Assembly (NCBI GenBank): GCA_028690575.1
Contig: JAQVAY010000003.1
Span: 1 to 40,681 of the forward strand
Reading direction: 5' to 3'
Length of the DNA stretch: 40,681 bases
Source of the DNA: Bacilli bacterium
Lineage (GTDB): Bacteria; Bacillota_I; Bacilli_A; RFN20; CAG-826
Both the position numbers and the translations under genes were made by a program. Below, piece after piece: positions 1-34,807 of this stretch (the first letter of the stretch is position 1; each line of letters opens with the position of its first letter). The notes beneath the pieces were generated by a model. The model did not search any database. It was not told the DNA's origin and saw nothing but the letters and a program-made list of their open reading frames with translations.

Positions 1-983
1 ACCAATTTAAATCCATCATCGATATCTTTCATAATCGCATCAATCATGTATTTTGAATCATAATTCCTATTAGGATCTATTTTATCGGCTGCATAAATGA
101 CTTTACCCATACGGTCCATTTTCGCATTGCCTGTCGCGTGAAATGTAATCGCTTTGATAATTGAGCGGTTCTGAATATTAAAATCAGTCTTGGCGATATA
201 AGAGCCTACAAATTGGTGAAAGGAAAAATTAGGCATATCCAAATATCTACGATAATGCTTTCTCATTATATCTTGGCTATTATGTTCTTTTCCAATGTCA
301 TGAAGGAAACCGGAAATATAATATAAGTCACCATTTCTAAGGTGATGCTTTTTAGCTATTTTATAAGCTAAATTTGCTACTGCCTTACTGTGATCAAATC
401 TTTTTGGTTTTAGATAAGATTTTATCTTCTTTATGTAATAAAGTTCATTATCTTCGATGTATTTAATGACTCTTTCGTCCAGTTTCAAGGAATGGAATGA
501 ACGGATGTCACTTGCGCTGACTTCCACCATTCTTCCTGGGACCATCATCATATTGTATTTTTTAATATTTTCTTCATTTAGTTCAATGTTTGGACGAGAC
601 ATGAAAATAATCTTTGCCCTCTTTGAAAGTTCTAAAGCCTCTTTCCAACGATGAAATTCGTTGACTTGATCACCACCGATAAGATAGAGAAGTTGATCAT
701 GAGGATATTTTTCTTGAAAATACCGAACTGTGTCGATTGAATAGTTTTGTTCTTTTCCACTGTTGACTTCAAATAAATCAATACTAAAACGCTTGTATTC
801 TTGAATGGATAATTTAATCATTTCCACCTTATCTTTGATAGGGGCAGATTCTTCTTTCCATATTGAAAGCGGAGAAGGCACAAAAATAACGTCAGCGTCA
901 AAATGCTTTGAAGCCAAACGCGCCATATTGATATGACCGAGATGAATCGGATCAAATCCTCCACCGAAAATGACTTTATTCAT
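1..983 (-). CDS. nadD: Nicotinate-nucleotide adenylyltransferase fused to YqeK-type HD phosphohydrolase (partial, runs off window edge)
   Basis: Not in the ORF track. Hand translation from ATG at 983 stays open to base 1: MNKVIFGGGFDPIHLGHINMARLASKHF...LYLIGGDQVNEFHRWKE...VSASDIRS followed by HD domain ...RFDHSKAVANLAYKIAKKH...SGFLHDIGKEH...AADKIDPNR. Confidence 0.9.
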   Translation of the reverse strand, partial: MNKVIFGGGFDPIHLGHINMARLASKHFDADVIFVPSPLSIWKEESAPIKDKVEMIKLSIQEYKRFSIDLFEVNSGKEQNYSIDTVRYFQEKYPHDQLLYLIGGDQVNEFHRWKEALELSKRAKIIFMSRPNIELNEENIKKYNMMMVPGRMVEVSASDIRSFHSLKLDERVIKYIEDNELYYIKKIKSYLKPKRFDHSKAVANLAYKIAKKHHLRNGDLYYISGFLHDIGKEHNSQDIMRKHYRRYLDMPNFSFHQFVGSYIAKTDFNIQNRSIIKAITFHATGNAKMDRMGKVIYAADKIDPNRNYDSKYMIDAIMKDIDDGFKL

Positions 984-984
984 G

Positions 985-1278
985 TTATTTTTTAAATTGA
1001 ATGACTGGTTTTTCTTTATTCCTGCGGAATAACACAATAACTTTTCCCACTACTTGAACGATATCAGCCTTAAGTTGAGTGGATAAATCCAAAGCGAGAG
1101 CCATAACTGAAGAGCTTGCGCCTTTTAAAACATCGATCTTTATTAATTCTTTAACAACAAGAGCTTTATCCAACATATCAATCAGTGTATCGCTAATCTC
1201 GTTTTTGCCGACTTGGTATCTGGTGGTAACCTTTTCCGCCATCGCTCTCAATTGCTTTTTTTCATGTGTTGATAACAT
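985..1278 (-). CDS. yhbY: YhbY family RNA-binding (CRM domain) protein
   Basis: 97 aa; MLSTHEKKQLRAMAEKVTTRYQVGKNEISD...; conserved position between yqeH and nadD. Confidence 0.9.
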   Translation of the reverse strand: MLSTHEKKQLRAMAEKVTTRYQVGKNEISDTLIDMLDKALVVKELIKIDVLKGASSSVMALALDLSTQLKADIVQVVGKVIVLFRRNKEKPVIQFKK

Positions 1279-1280
1279 AT

Positions 1281-2423
1281 TTATCTCAACTTTCCTAAAT
1301 ACTCTTTTAAAGCTGCTCCCTTAGGGAACATAACGCGAATGACTTGACCTTTAGCCACGAAAGAGGCCCAACAAAGTCCAGCGATGCCAATATCGTGCAC
1401 CTTTCCGTCTTTTTCCATCGTGTAATCAAATAGATCATAATCAGTGAAGGTGTTAAATCTTGAACTAACTGGTCTTAAAAACTTTTTATCGTAGTTTTCC
1501 ATCATTGTTTCACGAGCTTTTTTGGATAAAACTTTCTTTGATTCAACCATCTCGGCAGTATAAAGTTTGAAAGTCGTTGGTTTTCCACTAATCAATTCGA
1601 AACTCGCTAGCGAACCAATTAACAAAGTTTCGCCAGGGGAGAGAATTCTCGTCGTAGTTTTGATTTCTTTTTTAGGCGTGATGATTTTTTGAATGTCTTT
1701 TTCAACTTTTCCTAAGGTAGAAGTGACTAAAGAAAAGCCTGGAACTTCATAGAATGAGGCCGAATTGGAAAAAGGTATCTCTAGCAATTTGACAGATGTG
1801 CCTGGATAAACTTCCGTTTTAATCGCTCGACGAGTGTTATTCGTATAAGATTTGAGCATTCTATTGATGAGTGTTGTCTTTCCTGAAGTGTAAGAACCAA
1901 TCATATAAACATCATGTCCGGCGCGAACCTCAGAAAGACTATTTAACATATTAGCAATGTCGATGTTATCTGTGTTACCGAATAGCACAACTCCATAAGG
2001 AGTTAAACCAAACTCCGCAAAACGCTCATTTATGAAAGTTTTGAGTTGCTCCTTTTTTGTGTTTCTTGGAAATAGATCAAATTTAGTACCCGCCACAATG
2101 ACTTTTAACTTTTTTACCTTATTCACGACATCTGGATTTAATGTACCATTAAATGAGAATAAATCGACAACCCAAATGATGACAGCGTCGGTTGCGACCG
2201 CGTCGTCAAGTATCTTGAGAATTTCCTCATCAGCATCTCGTTCAAGCATACCAGTGTTGATAGCTTTCATTTTTTCATAGCAGCTAAAACAATAAAGAAC
2301 TTCTTTTTCAGCATTCGGAGCAAGCAAATGACTCCTGCCGATAAACCCCTTTTCATTTTCTTTGGCGCTTTGCAACACTTCACCGCAATGATAGCATCGC
2401 ATCACTCTTTTAACTTTTCCCAT
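1281..2423 (-). CDS. yqeH: Ribosome biogenesis GTPase YqeH
   Basis: Zn-finger CYHCG...CFSC, circularly permuted GTPase motifs (TKFDL, GSYTSGKTTLINRML), SD GGAGG upstream. Confidence 0.93.
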   Translation of the reverse strand: MGKVKRVMRCYHCGEVLQSAKENEKGFIGRSHLLAPNAEKEVLYCFSCYEKMKAINTGMLERDADEEILKILDDAVATDAVIIWVVDLFSFNGTLNPDVVNKVKKLKVIVAGTKFDLFPRNTKKEQLKTFINERFAEFGLTPYGVVLFGNTDNIDIANMLNSLSEVRAGHDVYMIGSYTSGKTTLINRMLKSYTNNTRRAIKTEVYPGTSVKLLEIPFSNSASFYEVPGFSLVTSTLGKVEKDIQKIITPKKEIKTTTRILSPGETLLIGSLASFELISGKPTTFKLYTAEMVESKKVLSKKARETMMENYDKKFLRPVSSRFNTFTDYDLFDYTMEKDGKVHDIGIAGLCWASFVAKGQVIRVMFPKGAALKEYLGKLR

Positions 2424-2952
2424 AAAAAGTCCTCCAGTCTGGTAATTTTCCCTTTTTCTTCAGATTATTTCTAAGTGGGATATCGATTAAACGATTTAAT
2501 CTAGTTGTCCATTGATCTTCATTTACTATTTTATCAGTTAATATAGCTTTTATGTCAGCAGCATTTGCTGCTCCAATATCGGTCATCAGTTGGTCTCCGA
2601 CAAGCATGACTTTGTCATGTTCTATGCCAGAAGCCTTTAAAAAACTCTTAATTTTTTTTGCAAAAGGTTTCATCGCGCTGCTAATACATTCGATTTGAAG
2701 AAAATGAGCGTATGTTTGAACTCTCTTCCCTCTATTGTTTGAAACAATAATAGGTGTAATCCCATGCTCCCTTAAATCATTTATCAAATTAATAGCTCTT
2801 AATGTCGGATAATAGATGCGATAAGAATCAAGAGTATTGTCTAGATCAAGCAATAAGTACTTTATTCCGAGTTGAGAATAAAAGGGTGTTTCAATATCAT
2901 AGATTGATTTTGCGTGAGCAAAGACTATTCTTCTAATACACATAAATTCCAC
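2410..2952 (-). CDS. yqeG: YqeG family HAD IIIA-type phosphatase
   Basis: LLLDLDNTLDSYR, IVSNN, VGDQLMTDIGAAN; overlaps yqeH start. Confidence 0.92.
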   Translation of the reverse strand: MEFMCIRRIVFAHAKSIYDIETPFYSQLGIKYLLLDLDNTLDSYRIYYPTLRAINLINDLREHGITPIIVSNNRGKRVQTYAHFLQIECISSAMKPFAKKIKSFLKASGIEHDKVMLVGDQLMTDIGAANAADIKAILTDKIVNEDQWTTRLNRLIDIPLRNNLKKKGKLPDWRTFYGKS

Positions 2953-3112
2953 TTTTATTTTATATTAAAAATAACATAGTGCCTAGTAATACGAACAAAA
3001 TCTCTTTTTCGATGGCTATTACGATAAAAAATACTAGACGTAACCTTCAAATATATTAATACTAAAATATTACTAAAAAACTACTAATTACATATTAAAC
3101 ATACAAAGTATG

Positions 3113-5737
3113 TTATTCTTCGTCATCGAATATCGAAATTTGTTCAAAGGTTCCCGATTCATCCTTAATGGTATTCTCAGGTGAATCTTTTTCTTTTTTA
3201 TCGACGACTGGGTTTTCTTTTTGCTTAATTTCTTTTTGAACAATCGGATGAGATGTTGAATCTTTGTTAATGCAATCTAACGAATCATCAAAGACATATT
3301 CGATTCTTGTTTTGCTTGGAATTGAAACATTCTTTTTTGCATACTTGTTTATATCCGTTAGATATAAATCTTCTACTTTATAAGACCAGATGTTCTGATT
3401 GTTTAAACCTAAGTTAACAATATATTCACCATCGACCTGATTTTTTGCTTTTAAGGAAGAAACAATACGATGGATGTCACTTTTAAAACATGGCATAATT
3501 TGCATTGGCTTTCCTAGCCTTGGTGTACACGCAACTTTATTAGGATCGAGCACACGCTCATGACCTTTGTCCGTGAAGATGAGGATTTTGGCTTTTTCCT
3601 CTTCATCAAAAGCGAACAAACTTATAGTTTGATTTTTTCCTAAGCCAGTGACAGATTTTACTCCGCCAGCTTTTGAACTTAAAATCGATAAATCATTTTC
3701 GTTGAACCGAGTGGCGTAGCCATCGCTAGTAAGAACAAGCAAGTCGCTATTTCCAGTCAACACTTGAACTCCTACCACTTCATCGCTGTTTAAGAGGCGC
3801 ATATAGCGAGAAAGACGTGGCCTTGAGTAGAAATCCAGCGAAGTGCTTGCCATTCGTTTGATTTGGCCAAAGCGACTTAATGATGATAGATAAATGTCTT
3901 CTCTCAACTTGCTAACGGCGATAGCTTTGATAATTTTTTCTCCAGCCCCTAGAGTTACAAAAGTATTAAGATGAGTTCCTTCATCTTTCCATTTTGTTTC
4001 ATTGATTTTGTGGACTGGAATGGAGGTGTAGTTTCCTAAATTGGTGAAGCAAATCAAATAGTCAGTGGTAAAGGCTTCTCCTGCGCTGACAAGACAATCA
4101 CCGCTTTTTAAACCTGGTAAAGCGTTAGCTCCTGAACCTTTGAACGACTTGATGGATGAGCGTTTAATATAGCCATCTCTTGTTACAGCAACAATAACAT
4201 TTTCTTTAGCGATTAAATCGCGCTTATCAATAGGCTCTATCTCAATTTTTCCTTCAACAGCAGTTCTTCTATCATCACCATATTTTAAGGCAATTTGTTT
4301 TAAATCTTTGATTAAAACACGATTCAATTTATTCGGATCTTCGAGAATTTCATTAAGAACGGCAATGTCTTTTTCTAATTGGACTTTTTCCTTCTCGAGA
4401 ACTTCCTCATCGGTGTGGCTCAATTTGTATAAAGGCATGGTGACAATTGCTTCTGCTTGTTCATTCGAAAAATTAAAGCGCTTGCATAAATTAACTTTTG
4501 AATCGTTTTTATCTTTACTCTTGCGAATGATATCCACAACCTCATTGATTGACAAAGAAGCGGTGATTAAACCGATAACGAGATGCAAACGATCGGTAAA
4601 CTTGCCTAAATCGAATTTGCTCTGACGAGTAATGACTTCGACTTGATGATCGATATAAGCATCGACAAATTCAATTAAAGATAGAGTTCTCGGTCTTCCA
4701 TTAACAATGGATACCATATTAGCAGAGTAGGAAGAAAACAATGAAGTTTTCTTCATTAAGTATTTCAAAAGCAAATCGGCCCTAGAGTCTTTTTTGCAAT
4801 CGATAACTATGCGAATACCTTTCCAGTCGCTCTCGTCACGCACTTCTAATAGGCCATTGACTGATTTGGAATGGATGATTTTATCTATTTCGTAAACCAA
4901 TTGAATTTTAACGACTTTATAAGGAATCTCGGTGATAACGATTTGCTGGAGATCTTTTGTTTTAATGATTTCTGCTTTGGCAGAAACTTCTATTCTTCCT
5001 CGGCCAGTTGTATAGATGTTTTTCAAGCCTTCTGATTCAAAAATTATTCCACCACCTGGGAAGTCAGGCCCCTTCACGAAATTGAGCAAATCTTCGGTTG
5101 TAGCGTTCTTATGATTAATACGATAAATAATAGCATCAATAACTTCTCTAAGGTTGTGTGGAGGTATTTCAGTTGCTAAAGCAACTGCAATTCCTTCAGT
5201 TCCGTTGACTAACAAATTGGGAAAACGGCTTGGCAAGACAATTGGTTCTAATTCAGTGTCGTCAAAATTGAGTTGCATTTCGACAGTGTTCTTATCAATG
5301 TTTTTCACTAGTTCATTGCTTAATTCACTGAGTCGAGATTCAGTATATCGATAAGCAGCAGGAGAGTCTCCATCAATCGATCCGTTATTACCTTGGAAAT
5401 CGATGAGAGGGTAGCGAACCTTCCAATCTTGGCTCATTCTTGCAAGAGCCTCATAAATGGAAGAGTCACCATGAGGATGGTAAGTACCCATTACTGTTCC
5501 CACGGTATGAGCGCATTTCTTGGTTGGCTTATTGAAAAGATTATTGCTCTTATACATCGAGAAAATAATTCTTCTTTGTACGGGCTTTAAACCATCGCGA
5601 ACATCTGGAATGGCGCGATCTTGAATAACATATTTAGCATAGGTGGCATAACGATCACCCATTACATTTTCTAAAGGCTCAATCGAGATATTTTCTTTGA
5701 TGGGTTCATCAATTATGACATCATTTTTCTTTGCCAT
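3113..5737 (-). CDS. parC: DNA topoisomerase IV subunit A
   Basis: 874 aa; GDRYATYAKYVIQDRAIPDVRDGLKPVQRRI, AAYRYTE active-site Tyr; next to parE. Confidence 0.93.
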   Translation of the reverse strand: MAKKNDVIIDEPIKENISIEPLENVMGDRYATYAKYVIQDRAIPDVRDGLKPVQRRIIFSMYKSNNLFNKPTKKCAHTVGTVMGTYHPHGDSSIYEALARMSQDWKVRYPLIDFQGNNGSIDGDSPAAYRYTESRLSELSNELVKNIDKNTVEMQLNFDDTELEPIVLPSRFPNLLVNGTEGIAVALATEIPPHNLREVIDAIIYRINHKNATTEDLLNFVKGPDFPGGGIIFESEGLKNIYTTGRGRIEVSAKAEIIKTKDLQQIVITEIPYKVVKIQLVYEIDKIIHSKSVNGLLEVRDESDWKGIRIVIDCKKDSRADLLLKYLMKKTSLFSSYSANMVSIVNGRPRTLSLIEFVDAYIDHQVEVITRQSKFDLGKFTDRLHLVIGLITASLSINEVVDIIRKSKDKNDSKVNLCKRFNFSNEQAEAIVTMPLYKLSHTDEEVLEKEKVQLEKDIAVLNEILEDPNKLNRVLIKDLKQIALKYGDDRRTAVEGKIEIEPIDKRDLIAKENVIVAVTRDGYIKRSSIKSFKGSGANALPGLKSGDCLVSAGEAFTTDYLICFTNLGNYTSIPVHKINETKWKDEGTHLNTFVTLGAGEKIIKAIAVSKLREDIYLSSLSRFGQIKRMASTSLDFYSRPRLSRYMRLLNSDEVVGVQVLTGNSDLLVLTSDGYATRFNENDLSILSSKAGGVKSVTGLGKNQTISLFAFDEEEKAKILIFTDKGHERVLDPNKVACTPRLGKPMQIMPCFKSDIHRIVSSLKAKNQVDGEYIVNLGLNNQNIWSYKVEDLYLTDINKYAKKNVSIPSKTRIEYVFDDSLDCINKDSTSHPIVQKEIKQKENPVVDKKEKDSPENTIKDESGTFEQISIFDDEE

Positions 5738-7788: not shown

Positions 7789-8553
7789 ATGAATATATTA
7801 TATAATATATTAGCAGTATTATTCAGCCTAATGGTTGGTTATTTACTTGGTTCTATCCCATCCTCTGTTTGGATTGGAAAAGCTTTTTTCAACCAAGATC
7901 CTCGTGATTACGGTTCCCGAAATGCCGGTGGCACGAATGCTGGAAGATTATGGGGAAAGAAAATCGGTTTATTAGTTATGATAATCGATATGTTCAAAGC
8001 CGGACTTTCGGTGTGGCTTTGTTGGTTTATTTTTTCTCGCATTCCTTTCGACAACGGCCAAACCCTTGTCGCTTCCGTCAATAATGTTGATAATTTTGGA
8101 ATGAACTTTTCTTATATAATCGCTTGGCCGGTTTACTGGGTTGCAACCATAGGTTGCATGGTCGGACATTGTTGGCCAATCTTCGCTCATTTTAAAGGTG
8201 GTAAAGGCGTAGCGGTATATGCTGGTTCTATTCTATTTACCTCATGGATGATTGCTTTTATTCCTGGAATTCTCTATTTTGTAATCCTCAAAATAAGCAA
8301 ACACGTTTCCCTCGCTAGTATTATTGCCCCTATTTGTTGCACACTATTAGCGTGGATTTGGGCCATTCTTTGTATGTTGGGCATCATTCCAACAAGCTTG
8401 TATTCATTGCCAACATACGGACCGAACCTATTGCCATCATGGGTCTTTGCCATCGTCCTTACTTTCCACTCAGTGATAGTCATTATTCGTCATTCTGAAA
8501 ACATCAAAAGACTTAAAGCCGGCACTGAACGAAAGATATCTTGGATGAAATAA
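7789..8553 (+). CDS. plsY: Glycerol-3-phosphate acyltransferase PlsY (membrane)
   Basis: YLLGSIPSSVWIGK, DYGSRNAGGTNAGR, GHCWPIFAHFKGGKGVA; 254 aa with an insert between TM segments. Confidence 0.93.
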   Translation: MNILYNILAVLFSLMVGYLLGSIPSSVWIGKAFFNQDPRDYGSRNAGGTNAGRLWGKKIGLLVMIIDMFKAGLSVWLCWFIFSRIPFDNGQTLVASVNNVDNFGMNFSYIIAWPVYWVATIGCMVGHCWPIFAHFKGGKGVAVYAGSILFTSWMIAFIPGILYFVILKISKHVSLASIIAPICCTLLAWIWAILCMLGIIPTSLYSLPTYGPNLLPSWVFAIVLTFHSVIVIIRHSENIKRLKAGTERKISWMK

Positions 8554-8584
8554 ATAGTAAATAATTAGTAGTTTTTAAGTAATT

Positions 8585-8607
8585 GCCTATCTATGATAGG
8601 CTTTTTC
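8585..8607 (+). terminator. Rho-independent terminator of plsY
   Basis: GCCTATC-TAT-GATAGGC followed by TTTTTC. Confidence 0.8.
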
Positions 8608-8613
8608 TTTCCG

Positions 8614-8640
8614 TAAAAAAAGCCCCCATTGCTGAGAGCT
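8614..8640 (-). terminator. Rho-independent terminator of the efp-yneF unit
   Basis: Minus strand AGCTCTC-AGCAAT-GGGGGCT (two G-T pairs) followed by T6. Confidence 0.6.
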
Positions 8641-31421: not shown

Positions 31422-32897
31422 CTAGTTACGAGGAATTGGTGTGTAAACATTTTTGTTTTTCACCATTTCTTTACGATAATACCCTAATTCCACTAAATGG
31501 TCCATAGATGTTCTTGCTGTTTCATATGCACAGCCAAGCGCTTTCTTGCATTGGGCAATCGTATATTTCTTCCCTAATGTGCAATGACGAGCATAAAACT
31601 TTGCTTCATTTCTCTTTAGGGAAGGATCTAATTCTAGAAGATGTTCTTCTAAACGGCAAGCCTGCTTTTCGTCTAAAACTGGAGGAATGTAACTGACAGC
31701 AATCTTTTCAGTTGAGACTTCGCTCACTTCTTCTTTTTCAACTGGTTTAGGCTCGCTCTTTTCAGTCGGCTTAACAACAGGTTCCCTTGGTTTTAGCTCA
31801 GGTTTAGCAAATATTGGTTCTCCTGGAAGAGGTTCTTTTTCAATAATTTGTTCTTTTTTAACTTCTATAATCGGCTCTACTGCCTCAGCGGGAACTTCTT
31901 CGATGCGATAGTAGTCTTTTTTCATCTCTTCGCTGTTTCGATTGGCGATATAATCGAGAACTTTTTCGCATTTATCACTGATATAAGGAAGGGCAAAGTT
32001 GATGAAATATGTCAAGTCATTGGTTTTTTGCACTTCAACAAGGAGGCGGGCGATGACATCTTGTTTCTCGTTAAGAAGTGATTCGAAAGGTAATAGAACA
32101 CCCAATTCAGAAAGGCCAGTATGAGCTAAGACAGCTTTCATCATTAATAGAGCAATTTCATCGTTATATGAAGGAAAAGGACGAATGTAATTTACATAAT
32201 AATATGTAGCAATACTTTTGACTAGACCACTACTTTTTCCATTCTGAATGAAAGAGAATAAATCGTTCATCATTGAATCGATTAAATGAACAGGAGCAGC
32301 AGTATAAACAGGATCAATTAAAACGCGATTTTCGGGATTCTTATCATCTTTAATCCGATAAAAGCTGGTCAGTTCAGATTCCCCAATAATTTTGGCGTAT
32401 AATTCGGCGAGGAAATCGATATCAATTTGGCTTGAAAATTTACTTTTTATAAAAGTTAATGAGTTTACATAATGTTTTAAGATTCGATGAGTGTTCGAAA
32501 TTTCTTTTACATTTCCTTGAACGAGTGAACGTAAATAAGGTTCCGTGACATCCAACTCATATTTAGAAGCGACAAACTCTAATGATTTAATCAACCAAGC
32601 ATCTTCAAATTGTTTGGCATCTCCGTTGCTTGGACTCATGCGCATATACTCACGTAAAATGCGAAGGAGTTTCCCTTCTAGTTCATTTACGGATGTGGCC
32701 ACTGTTGGGCAAAAGCACACCAGTAAAGAATTGCGATCAACGCTCTTGATATTTAAATACTGATTATAAGCGCTTCGATAGGAAAGAATATTGGCCCAGA
32801 TATTATCAATGAGAGACATTTTTAATTCTTTGCCAACTTCACTACGAGTCGCATATTTAGTTTCAGTAAAACGAATAGCTAAATCATTGCTTGCCAT
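31422..32897 (-). CDS. Fic-fold-like protein with degenerate catalytic motif and C-terminal winged-helix-like region
   Basis: ATYYYVNYIRPFPSYNDEIALLMMKAVLA aligns to the Fic core HPFxxGNGR helix but lacks His and GNGR; C-terminus QCKKALGCAYETARTSMDHLVELGYYRK HTH-like. Confidence 0.65.
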   Translation of the reverse strand: MASNDLAIRFTETKYATRSEVGKELKMSLIDNIWANILSYRSAYNQYLNIKSVDRNSLLVCFCPTVATSVNELEGKLLRILREYMRMSPSNGDAKQFEDAWLIKSLEFVASKYELDVTEPYLRSLVQGNVKEISNTHRILKHYVNSLTFIKSKFSSQIDIDFLAELYAKIIGESELTSFYRIKDDKNPENRVLIDPVYTAAPVHLIDSMMNDLFSFIQNGKSSGLVKSIATYYYVNYIRPFPSYNDEIALLMMKAVLAHTGLSELGVLLPFESLLNEKQDVIARLLVEVQKTNDLTYFINFALPYISDKCEKVLDYIANRNSEEMKKDYYRIEEVPAEAVEPIIEVKKEQIIEKEPLPGEPIFAKPELKPREPVVKPTEKSEPKPVEKEEVSEVSTEKIAVSYIPPVLDEKQACRLEEHLLELDPSLKRNEAKFYARHCTLGKKYTIAQCKKALGCAYETARTSMDHLVELGYYRKEMVKNKNVYTPIPRN

Positions 32898-32920: not shown

Positions 32921-32950
32921 ATTATATAAACATTTCGAAAAATATGGCAA
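32921..32950 (-). promoter_or_regulatory. Predicted sigma-A promoter for the Fic-like gene
   Basis: Minus strand TTGCCA (32945-32950) - 18 nt - TATAAT (32921-32926), then SD AGAGGT and ATG 32897. Confidence 0.6.
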
Positions 32951-32992
32951 GAAGAAAACCAAAATAACTACTAAAATTCTACTAAATAAAAA

Positions 32993-34807
32993 CTAATTAT
33001 CATCATCGTCAATCGATAAGATTGACATAAAGGCTTCTTGAGGTACTTCGACAGAACCAATCTTTTTCATCCTCTTTTTGCCTTCTTTTTGCTTTTCAAG
33101 AAGTTTCTTTTTACGAGAAATATCTCCTCCATAGCACTTGGCTAAGACATCTTTTCGCACTGCTTTAACATCAACGCGCGCCACTACTTTACCACCAATT
33201 GCAGCTTGAATAGGAATTTCAAATTGCTGTCGAGGAATCACTTCTTTGATTCTTCTAATAACGCCAAGACCTCGTTTATATCCATCAGGACGATAGATGA
33301 TGCTACTCAAAGCATCAACGACCGTCGCATTTAATAAGACATCCAATTTGACAAGATCGCTTTTTCGATATGAGGAGTATTCATAGTCAAAAGAAGCGTA
33401 TCCCTTCGTATAACTCTTGAGTTTATCAAAGAAATTATAAATAATTTCAGCAAGTGGCAATTGGTATATCAAAATCATTCTGGTTTCATCGAAATATTCA
33501 AGATTCTCATATATGCCACGTCTTTCTTGACATAACTCCATAGTCGCTCCGACATATTCTTTTGGAGTCATGATTGAAGCTTTAACATATGGTTCTTCAA
33601 TATGATCAATCTTTGAATTATCTGGCAGCTTGCTGGGGTTATCGAGATTAATTACGCTTCCATCTGTCATGTAAACATGATAAATAACGCTTGGAGCGGT
33701 CAAAATTAAATCGAGATCATATTCTCTTTCCAATCGTTCTTGAACGATATCCATATGTAATAAGCCAAGAAAACCACAGCGGAAACCAAAGCCAAGAGCT
33801 TGGCTAGATTCAGCAATATATTGTAAGGAAGCATCACTCAATGACAATTTATCAAGAGCATCTTTTAATTCGTGATATTCTTCGGAATAAACAGGGTATA
33901 ATCCACAGAAGACCATTGGATTCATTATTCGATAACCAGGGAGAGCTTTTGGGGCTGGATTATTGACTGAAGTGACGGTGTCACCAGGTCGGACATCTTT
34001 GATGTTTTTAATTTGAGCGCATAAATAGCCAACTTCACCTGCTGAAAGACTATCAACCTTAATCGGATTGGCAGCGTGAATTCCTAATTCAGTGACTTGG
34101 TATTGCTTGTTGGCTTGCATTAAGCGAATCTCATCGCCAATCTTGACAGTTCCATCCATAATGCGAATGAGAATCACTACTCCTCGATAAGAATCATAGT
34201 AACTGTCAAATATTAAAGCCTTCAAAGGTGCTTCATGGTTTCCATTTGGTGGAGGAACATCTTTAACTATCGTTTCCAATAATTCGTGGATGTGGTAGCC
34301 GGTTTTGGCTGATACTTCGACGACATCAGTGCAGTCAATACCAATCTTTTCTTCGATTTCTTTACGACATAAGTCTGGTCTCGCACTTGGCAAATCAATT
34401 TTATTGATAATTGGTAATATTGTTAGATCATTGTCGATGGCAAGATAAGTATTAGCGAGTGTTTGAGCTTCAACACCTTGAGTGGCATCCACTACCAAAA
34501 TAGCACCTTCACAGGCTGCTAAAGAGCGTGATACTTCATAGGTGAAGTCAACATGCCCTGGAGTGTCAATAAGATTAAAAATATAAGTATTTCCGTCATC
34601 CGCCTTATAGTTCAAAGTAACTGCGTTGAGCTTGATGGTTATGCCTCGCTCTCTTTCCAAATCCATGGAATCGAGAATTTGTTCCTTCATATCACGTTGT
34701 TCAATCGTTCCCGTCGCTTCTAAAATACGATCGGCGAGAGTGCTCTTGCCGTGATCAATATGGGCGATGATGGAGAAGTTTCTAATTTTCTTTTGATCTA
34801 TTTTCAT
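32993..34807 (-). CDS. lepA: Elongation factor 4 (LepA)
   Basis: [36 protein letters not shown]-terminal [23 protein letters not shown]. Confidence 0.95.

Follow-up and report, generated by a model that had tools for sequence, protein, structure and literature searches.

What are the 11-nt repeats that follow parC in this Bacilli genome, and why do they occur where they do? The window (the whole stretch of DNA analysed, 40,681 nt) contains three arrays of TTAGTA units. The first has four units of 11 nt (3055..3098, minus strand; PWM score 35.7) and lies between parC, encoding topoisomerase IV subunit A (3113..5737, minus strand; TIGR01061, E 1.9e-242, just under the cut-off), and yqeG (2410..2952, minus strand; TIGR01668). 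On the minus strand, TTAGT is found at 3087, 3076 and 3065, in exact 11-nt steps, with an additional degenerate unit, TTAAT, at 3098. The second array has three units (8554..8586, plus strand; PWM score 26.6), is directly 3' of the stop codon of plsY (7789..8553, plus strand; TIGR00023), and has AGTA every 11 nt starting at 8556. The third, also of three units (32964..32996, minus strand; PWM score 35.3), overlaps the stop codon of lepA (EF4; 32993..34807, minus strand; TIGR01393, 992.8 bits) and has TTAGT at 32996, 32985 and 32974. The first-pass annotation had reported the 11-nt AGTA spacing after parC, a 22-mer matching at 21/22 positions between the parC and plsY arrays, and a third array with the same spacing after lepA; all of this is borne out. 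After the plsY array there is a hairpin, GCCTATC-TATGATAGGC, followed by a T run (8586-8615, plus strand); read by eye, it is an apparent intrinsic terminator.

The window has two exact TTAGT triples at 11-nt steps, against a mean of 0.0 in 100 Markov-1 (nearest-neighbour) resamplings. In the genome itself (1.02 Mb in 101 contigs) the triple, with up to one mismatch, matches four times at three loci, and the reversed-pattern control does not match at all. The arrays had been described as a three-locus family, which is far too small: this genome adds arrays at C101:474, C101:6394 and C33:1179, and relatives have up to about 20 each. Among 58 related genomes the triple is common and clusters in one chromosomal region, with few control matches in most genomes. 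All genomes analysed are MAGs, and the counts given here are raw, with shared ancestry ignored. A matrix trained on the units gives the consensus T-T-A-G-T-A-(G)-W-W-W-W, in which AGT hardly varies; 100 arrays score 25 or more with it, versus none in reversed sequence. Near dif, in 25 genomes, TTAGT pairs are spaced by 11 bp (n=106), 22 bp (n=43) or 33 bp (n=18); other spacings have about 5. The window arrays are members of a TTAGTA(G)WWWW direct-repeat family with an exact 11-bp period. This period is compatible with the earlier suggestion of binding on one face of B-DNA. It was also stated that no named element fits; the element is real, conserved and unnamed, and an Rfam search of the window found no matching family. 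The open-licence literature yielded no paper joining TTAGTA, direct repeats and the terminus; earlier description elsewhere is possible.

The chromosomal region is most easily recognised in a relative with an 879-kb contig (G012). It has 19 of the 11-bp TTAGT pairs in 140-240 kb versus 5 in other 20-kb samples, and within the array cluster the GC skew changes sign, from +0.17 to -0.20. The dif site is at 184 kb, and dnaA is opposite, at 713 kb. As read from these genomes, several families of uncultured Bacilli have their arrays concentrated near dif and the replication terminus. The window can be placed on the same map. Its first 32 bases (1..32) are a contig-end overlap, the 100% reverse complement of C101:1-32. 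Contig C101 has dif at 336-362 and its two arrays at 474 (474-495, dif-proximal) and 6394. Because of the overlap, dif is expected some 303-329 nt before the first base of the window; alignment to G001 agrees with a position about 0.3 kb to the left. In relatives parC is terminus-proximal, at a median of 5.1 kb from dif. On this placement the window covers the right-hand side of the terminus, with arrays at about 3.4 kb (pointing toward dif), 8.9 kb (pointing away) and 33 kb from dif. Dif-pointing arrays at about 3.3 kb recur in G001, G005, G022, G028 and G030, and arrays at about 8.5-9.4 kb, mostly facing away, recur in at least ten other genera. The xseB-dxs gap, the 3' side of plsY and the parC-yqeG gap are syntenic array sites. 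It is close to certain that the arrays are part of a terminus- and dif-linked system.

The closest association is with dif itself, the site used to separate sister chromosomes. Nearly all genomes of families f1, f3 and f5 that were looked at have a dif-proximal array; the exceptions are G016 and G044. It lies on the TTATGTTAAC side of dif; homology with the E. coli site identifies this side as the XerD-type arm. The gap between dif and array is 109 +/- 7 bp in 23 genomes (range 88-121), with 14 of the 23 at 109-112; the remaining gaps are mostly one unit shorter or longer. The phase is non-random (Rayleigh p ~3e-7), and 10.5 bp fits equally well as 11 bp. Three f3 genomes (G035, G042 and G047) have arrays on the other side of dif too, again facing it. 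Of the 281 genomes searched in the order, 110 match a composite dif-gap-array pattern, and none matches its reversed control. The spacing peaks, the controls and this distribution contradict an occurrence at the rate of shuffled DNA and a lack of conservation in relatives. Against 85,462 species genomes the same pattern finds 111 stretches. Among the 80 matches listed, almost all are titled uncultured Bacilli, Bacillales or Erysipelotrichaceae, and 75 score as arrays. Judged by the matches listed, the combined dif and array element is essentially restricted to this lineage of uncultured Bacilli. A MAG titled Staphylococcus epidermidis (L219, CAMBSI010000003.1) also has the dif-plus-array of the lineage; it is probably mislabelled or mixed.

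A fixed side and distance from dif, with the array always facing dif, would be expected of a Xer accessory sequence like those of cer and psi. The dif-proximal array, wrapped by protein, would then set the topology or timing of XerCD recombination, and the other arrays would be secondary. Accessory proteins at cer and psi include the transcription factors ArgR and ArcA (PMC5357621). The dif-proximal arrangement resembles these in that a site of the transcription-factor type keeps a constant distance from a Xer core and stays on one side of it. It differs from the ArgR/PepA/ArcA systems in that the core is a chromosomal dif, the array is on the XerD-type arm, and there are dozens of further arrays. 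Most arrays are kilobases away from dif and, to our knowledge, a chromosomal dif normally has no need for accessory DNA. An accessory role as the primary function is improbable.

Orientation changes with distance. All 26 arrays no more than 0.3 kb from dif face it, as do all 12 between 0.3 and 5 kb and 14 of the 15 between 5 and 8 kb. Such polarity recalls Tus-Ter and RTP-Ter fork traps, in which case bound arrays would halt forks that had passed the terminus. The promoters of tus and rtp each contain a ter site (PMC10331603). Likewise, the gene encoding the candidate array binder described below has an array at its promoter in 41/44 homologues. However, at 8-10.5 kb most arrays face away from dif (17 versus 7 toward it), and outer orientation tracks the adjacent gene; a strict rule that every array faces dif was rejected on these grounds. 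Arrays are also found before ftsA and nrdD. They are numerous, lie on both arms, are of mixed orientation beyond 8 kb, and have a site architecture different from that of Tus and RTP sites. RTP homologues (PF02334) were found in 0/58 relatives, with a positive B. subtilis control. A polar fork trap is accordingly given little credence.

Gene context raises a different possibility. Near dif, 102/125 arrays are intergenic, while 81% of the region is coding. Outside the dif site 66 arrays are sense and 15 antisense to the adjacent gene, statistics that are partly confounded with gene direction, and arrays start at a median of 10.5 nt past the stop codon. The sense bias is taken as real because array orientation away from dif tracks the neighbouring gene. 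The first-pass annotation described its three arrays as transcript-sense and as starting within about 30 nt of a stop codon. Across the family the bias and the typical distance stand, 15 arrays are antisense, and nearness to a stop codon is not a defining trait of the element. Both features would suit an RNA-level 3'-UTR element, acting as a terminator or as a repeated protein contact. This reading fails to account for sites that are ordered by chromosome position and held at a fixed distance from dif, with others just upstream of promoters, where they are antisense in two genomes (G012 and G033). The same properties distinguish the arrays from TRAP-type and other RNA 3'-UTR repeats. Terminator-like hairpins are absent at the parC and lepA arrays, and there is the lack of an Rfam match. 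An RNA element is thus very improbable indeed, and the arrays are almost certainly DNA sites.

The lepA-side array points to a protein that may bind these sites. Directly downstream of it is a promoter-like TTGCCA-18-TATAAT (32921..32950, minus strand), so called from an 11/12 consensus match, and 99 nt downstream of the array is the start of an ORF for a 491-aa protein (31422..32897, minus strand). Profiles, predicted structure and a survey of homologues were used to characterise it. It has a Fic fold (residues ~1-330), followed by a disordered linker (~335-408). A winged helix (410-487) forms the C-terminal part and contains the recognition helix YETARTSMDHLVEL at residues 458-471. An NCBIfam search found no family for it. 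A profile match to a Fic protein (4rgl, E 2.6e-10) agrees with the AlphaFold2 model (pLDDT 82.9), for which the top Foldseek matches are all Fic proteins (4rgl, E 2.2e-7). With an E-value limit of 0.1, PF02661 is found in 18/30 homologues (lowest E 8.7e-8), and the winged helix has a BlaI/MecI-like match in 15/30. The Fic catalytic motif HPFx[DE]GN[GK]R is absent in 30/30 homologues; by sequence, the fold is catalytically dead. The recognition helix, YETARTSM, barely changes between f1 and f5. Fic domains with a C-terminal HTH are also found in SO_4266 and CccR, and CccR represses its own promoter (PMC9755527). The cccR site is palindromic, whereas the sites here are direct repeats and terminus-linked, and the catalytic motif has been lost.

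The gene and the arrays co-occur. The gene is present in 48/58 relatives: in all f1 genomes but one that is 66% complete, and in all f3 and f5 genomes except G044, with weaker matches in f2 and f7. It was not found in f4, f6 or G044, and f8 has a partial Fic match in G045 only. Genomes of f4, f6 and f8 (G055 left out) and G044 have no arrays at dif, and array matches there are not above control. An array is found upstream of the start codon in 29/30 homologues and in 12/14 further ones; the background rate is 8% for genes at the terminus and 3% for genes far from it. In G049, G054, G052, G042 and G037 the gene and dif are on separate contigs, and the array-gene link there is therefore not a by-product of terminus position. 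The homologue in G041 has a ruined recognition helix and no promoter array; those in G019 and G057 have an intact helix but also lack the array. On these comparisons, the dead-Fic/winged-helix protein is very probably the array binder.

Association of a site with a gene cannot by itself name the binder. The arrays could be bound by a different protein, with the Fic-fold gene merely one of its regulated targets. Head-to-tail sites of 11 bp would also suit proteins of the OmpR/PhoB or ParR type. However, the co-occurrence of gene and arrays, the near-invariant recognition helix and the loss of the array where that helix has decayed make a different binder unlikely. No other conserved DNA-binding gene is prominent among the terminus genes. 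Several specific candidates were tried and rejected. Genes conserved around dif include deoB, xerD, dinB, dxs, xseAB, nadD, yqeH and parCE, and none of the conserved dif-flanking genes is an obvious new DNA-binder. A third tyrosine recombinase with an arm-binding domain was considered; the arrays presumably resemble the arm repeats of Tn916 Int. The Xer proteins lack an extra arm domain, and extra recombinases in this genome and G012 look like integrases of unrelated mobile elements. Small Xis/BldC-like HTH_17 proteins are patchy and are not co-distributed with the arrays. A 403-aa mobile-element-type tyrosine recombinase with an HTH_17 match upstream is encoded on contig C58 of this genome (L281; 913-2124, plus strand); it is likely to be part of an integrated element.

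Arrays also precede other genes. The rsmH-ftsA region has one in 13/17 f1 genomes examined (this genome and 12 others; 4 lack it) and in G034 of f2, and none was found in the f3, f4, f6 and f8 genomes looked at. Nine genomes with the gene family have an array upstream of nrdD, compared with 0/6 without the family. With arrays upstream of its own gene, ftsA and nrdD, the protein could be an ordinary autoregulated transcription regulator, and the terminus clustering would simply reflect the location of its targets. Family f2 fits this description, with promoter arrays at its own gene and, in G034, at ftsA. Although f2 genomes have the gene, they have no recognisable dif arrays in the two genomes testable; terminus binding is therefore not universal. 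The 20-mer counts cannot prove that f2 has the promoter site alone, because the G034 promoter array escapes the 20-mer pattern. Since f2 has promoter arrays and none at dif, the order of events suggested is an original regulator to which sites at the terminus were added afterwards. Elsewhere, most terminus arrays do not precede promoters but immediately follow stop codons or occupy convergent gaps and operon interiors (xseB-dxs, 3' of plsY, 110 bp from dif), and an ordinary regulator leaves the dif geometry unexplained. It is improbable that regulation is the whole answer.

The explanation preferred here is that the arrays are binding sites of an autoregulated terminus and division protein; as a whole it is probably correct. 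The arrays would act as double-stranded DNA sites, with one winged-helix domain per 11-bp turn, arranged head to tail. The protein is proposed to bind its own promoter and, in many genomes, DNA preceding ftsA(Z), which may affect ftsA expression. In f1, f3 and f5 its targets would also include numerous arrays up to about 45 kb from dif, among them the array some 110 bp from the XerD-type arm. Bridging of arrays by the Fic-fold bodies could draw the terminus together at dif and thereby tie dimer resolution and division to the completion of replication; MatP/matS and ZapT would be systems of comparable role. The dif-proximal complex may in addition aid XerCD or FtsK. The balance of evidence leans towards this organising and division-coupling role. 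Against it, array orientation away from dif follows the adjacent gene more than the direction of dif, a pattern that the organiser model does not require. A sensor of the end of replication is a rather unlikely variant: once the forks reach the terminus, duplication of the dense dif arrays would titrate the protein off the promoters of ftsA(Z), nrdD and its own gene while the dif-proximal complex readies XerCD. If so, completion of replication would be read by site titration and relayed to division, dNTP supply and dimer resolution.

Only a handful of lineages are known to have a terminus-marking system: enterobacteria have MatP, Caulobacter has ZapT, and narrow groups have the Tus and RTP fork traps. 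No known terminus system shares the form described here, with 11-bp repeats, a fixed distance from dif and a site before the gene of the candidate binder. One of the closest known systems is MatP/matS, which also has many sites confined to the terminus around dif and a proposed role in terminus gathering and division coupling. The matS site is a 13-bp palindrome bound by a ribbon-helix-helix protein, MatP, whereas the arrays are direct repeats with a dead-Fic/winged-helix candidate; one is fixed near dif, and others are before the candidate's own gene, ftsA and nrdD. The KOPS and SRS motifs that guide FtsK are single polar octamers found over the whole replichore; the arrays are multi-unit and near the terminus alone, with an outer polarity that follows genes. 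ZapT is a terminus-enriched DNA-binding protein with a proposed link between the terminus and the Z-ring (PMC7188993). It is similar in its terminus enrichment and its proposed tie to division, but no consensus motif was found for it and its sites are mostly inside ORFs, unlike the sharp, mostly intergenic motif here. If the preferred explanation is true, a further independent terminus-marking system exists in a large group of gut Bacilli that are uncultured and genome-reduced, and a catalytically dead Fic protein gains a proposed chromosomal role. Because the site motif is sharp and a candidate protein can be named, the system is testable at once. One motif ties together dif, the terminus and the ftsA and nrdD promoters; the question of how a cell recognises that replication is complete would thus become testable outside model organisms.

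Several minor features were also observed. In L286 (G057, f5) the arrays near dif consist in part of inverted TTAGTACTAA units, which are head-to-head rather than head-to-tail. A near-palindromic GATTTAATC-like motif is found 18-19 nt after the end of dif in about 35 of 80 loci (for example L198, L206 and L223); its position is constant but its conservation is loose. In the array-less family f8, L013 (G040) has 22-nt TTAGTTTTTGTTTTGTC repeats at about 1501, also found on several contigs and unrelated to the 11-bp arrays. Contig C101 of this genome (L094) encodes a PemK/MazF-like toxin-family protein (498-1079, minus strand; PF02452, E 4.2e-7) between the dif-proximal array and deoB, and homologues of this gene are near dif in 10 genomes.
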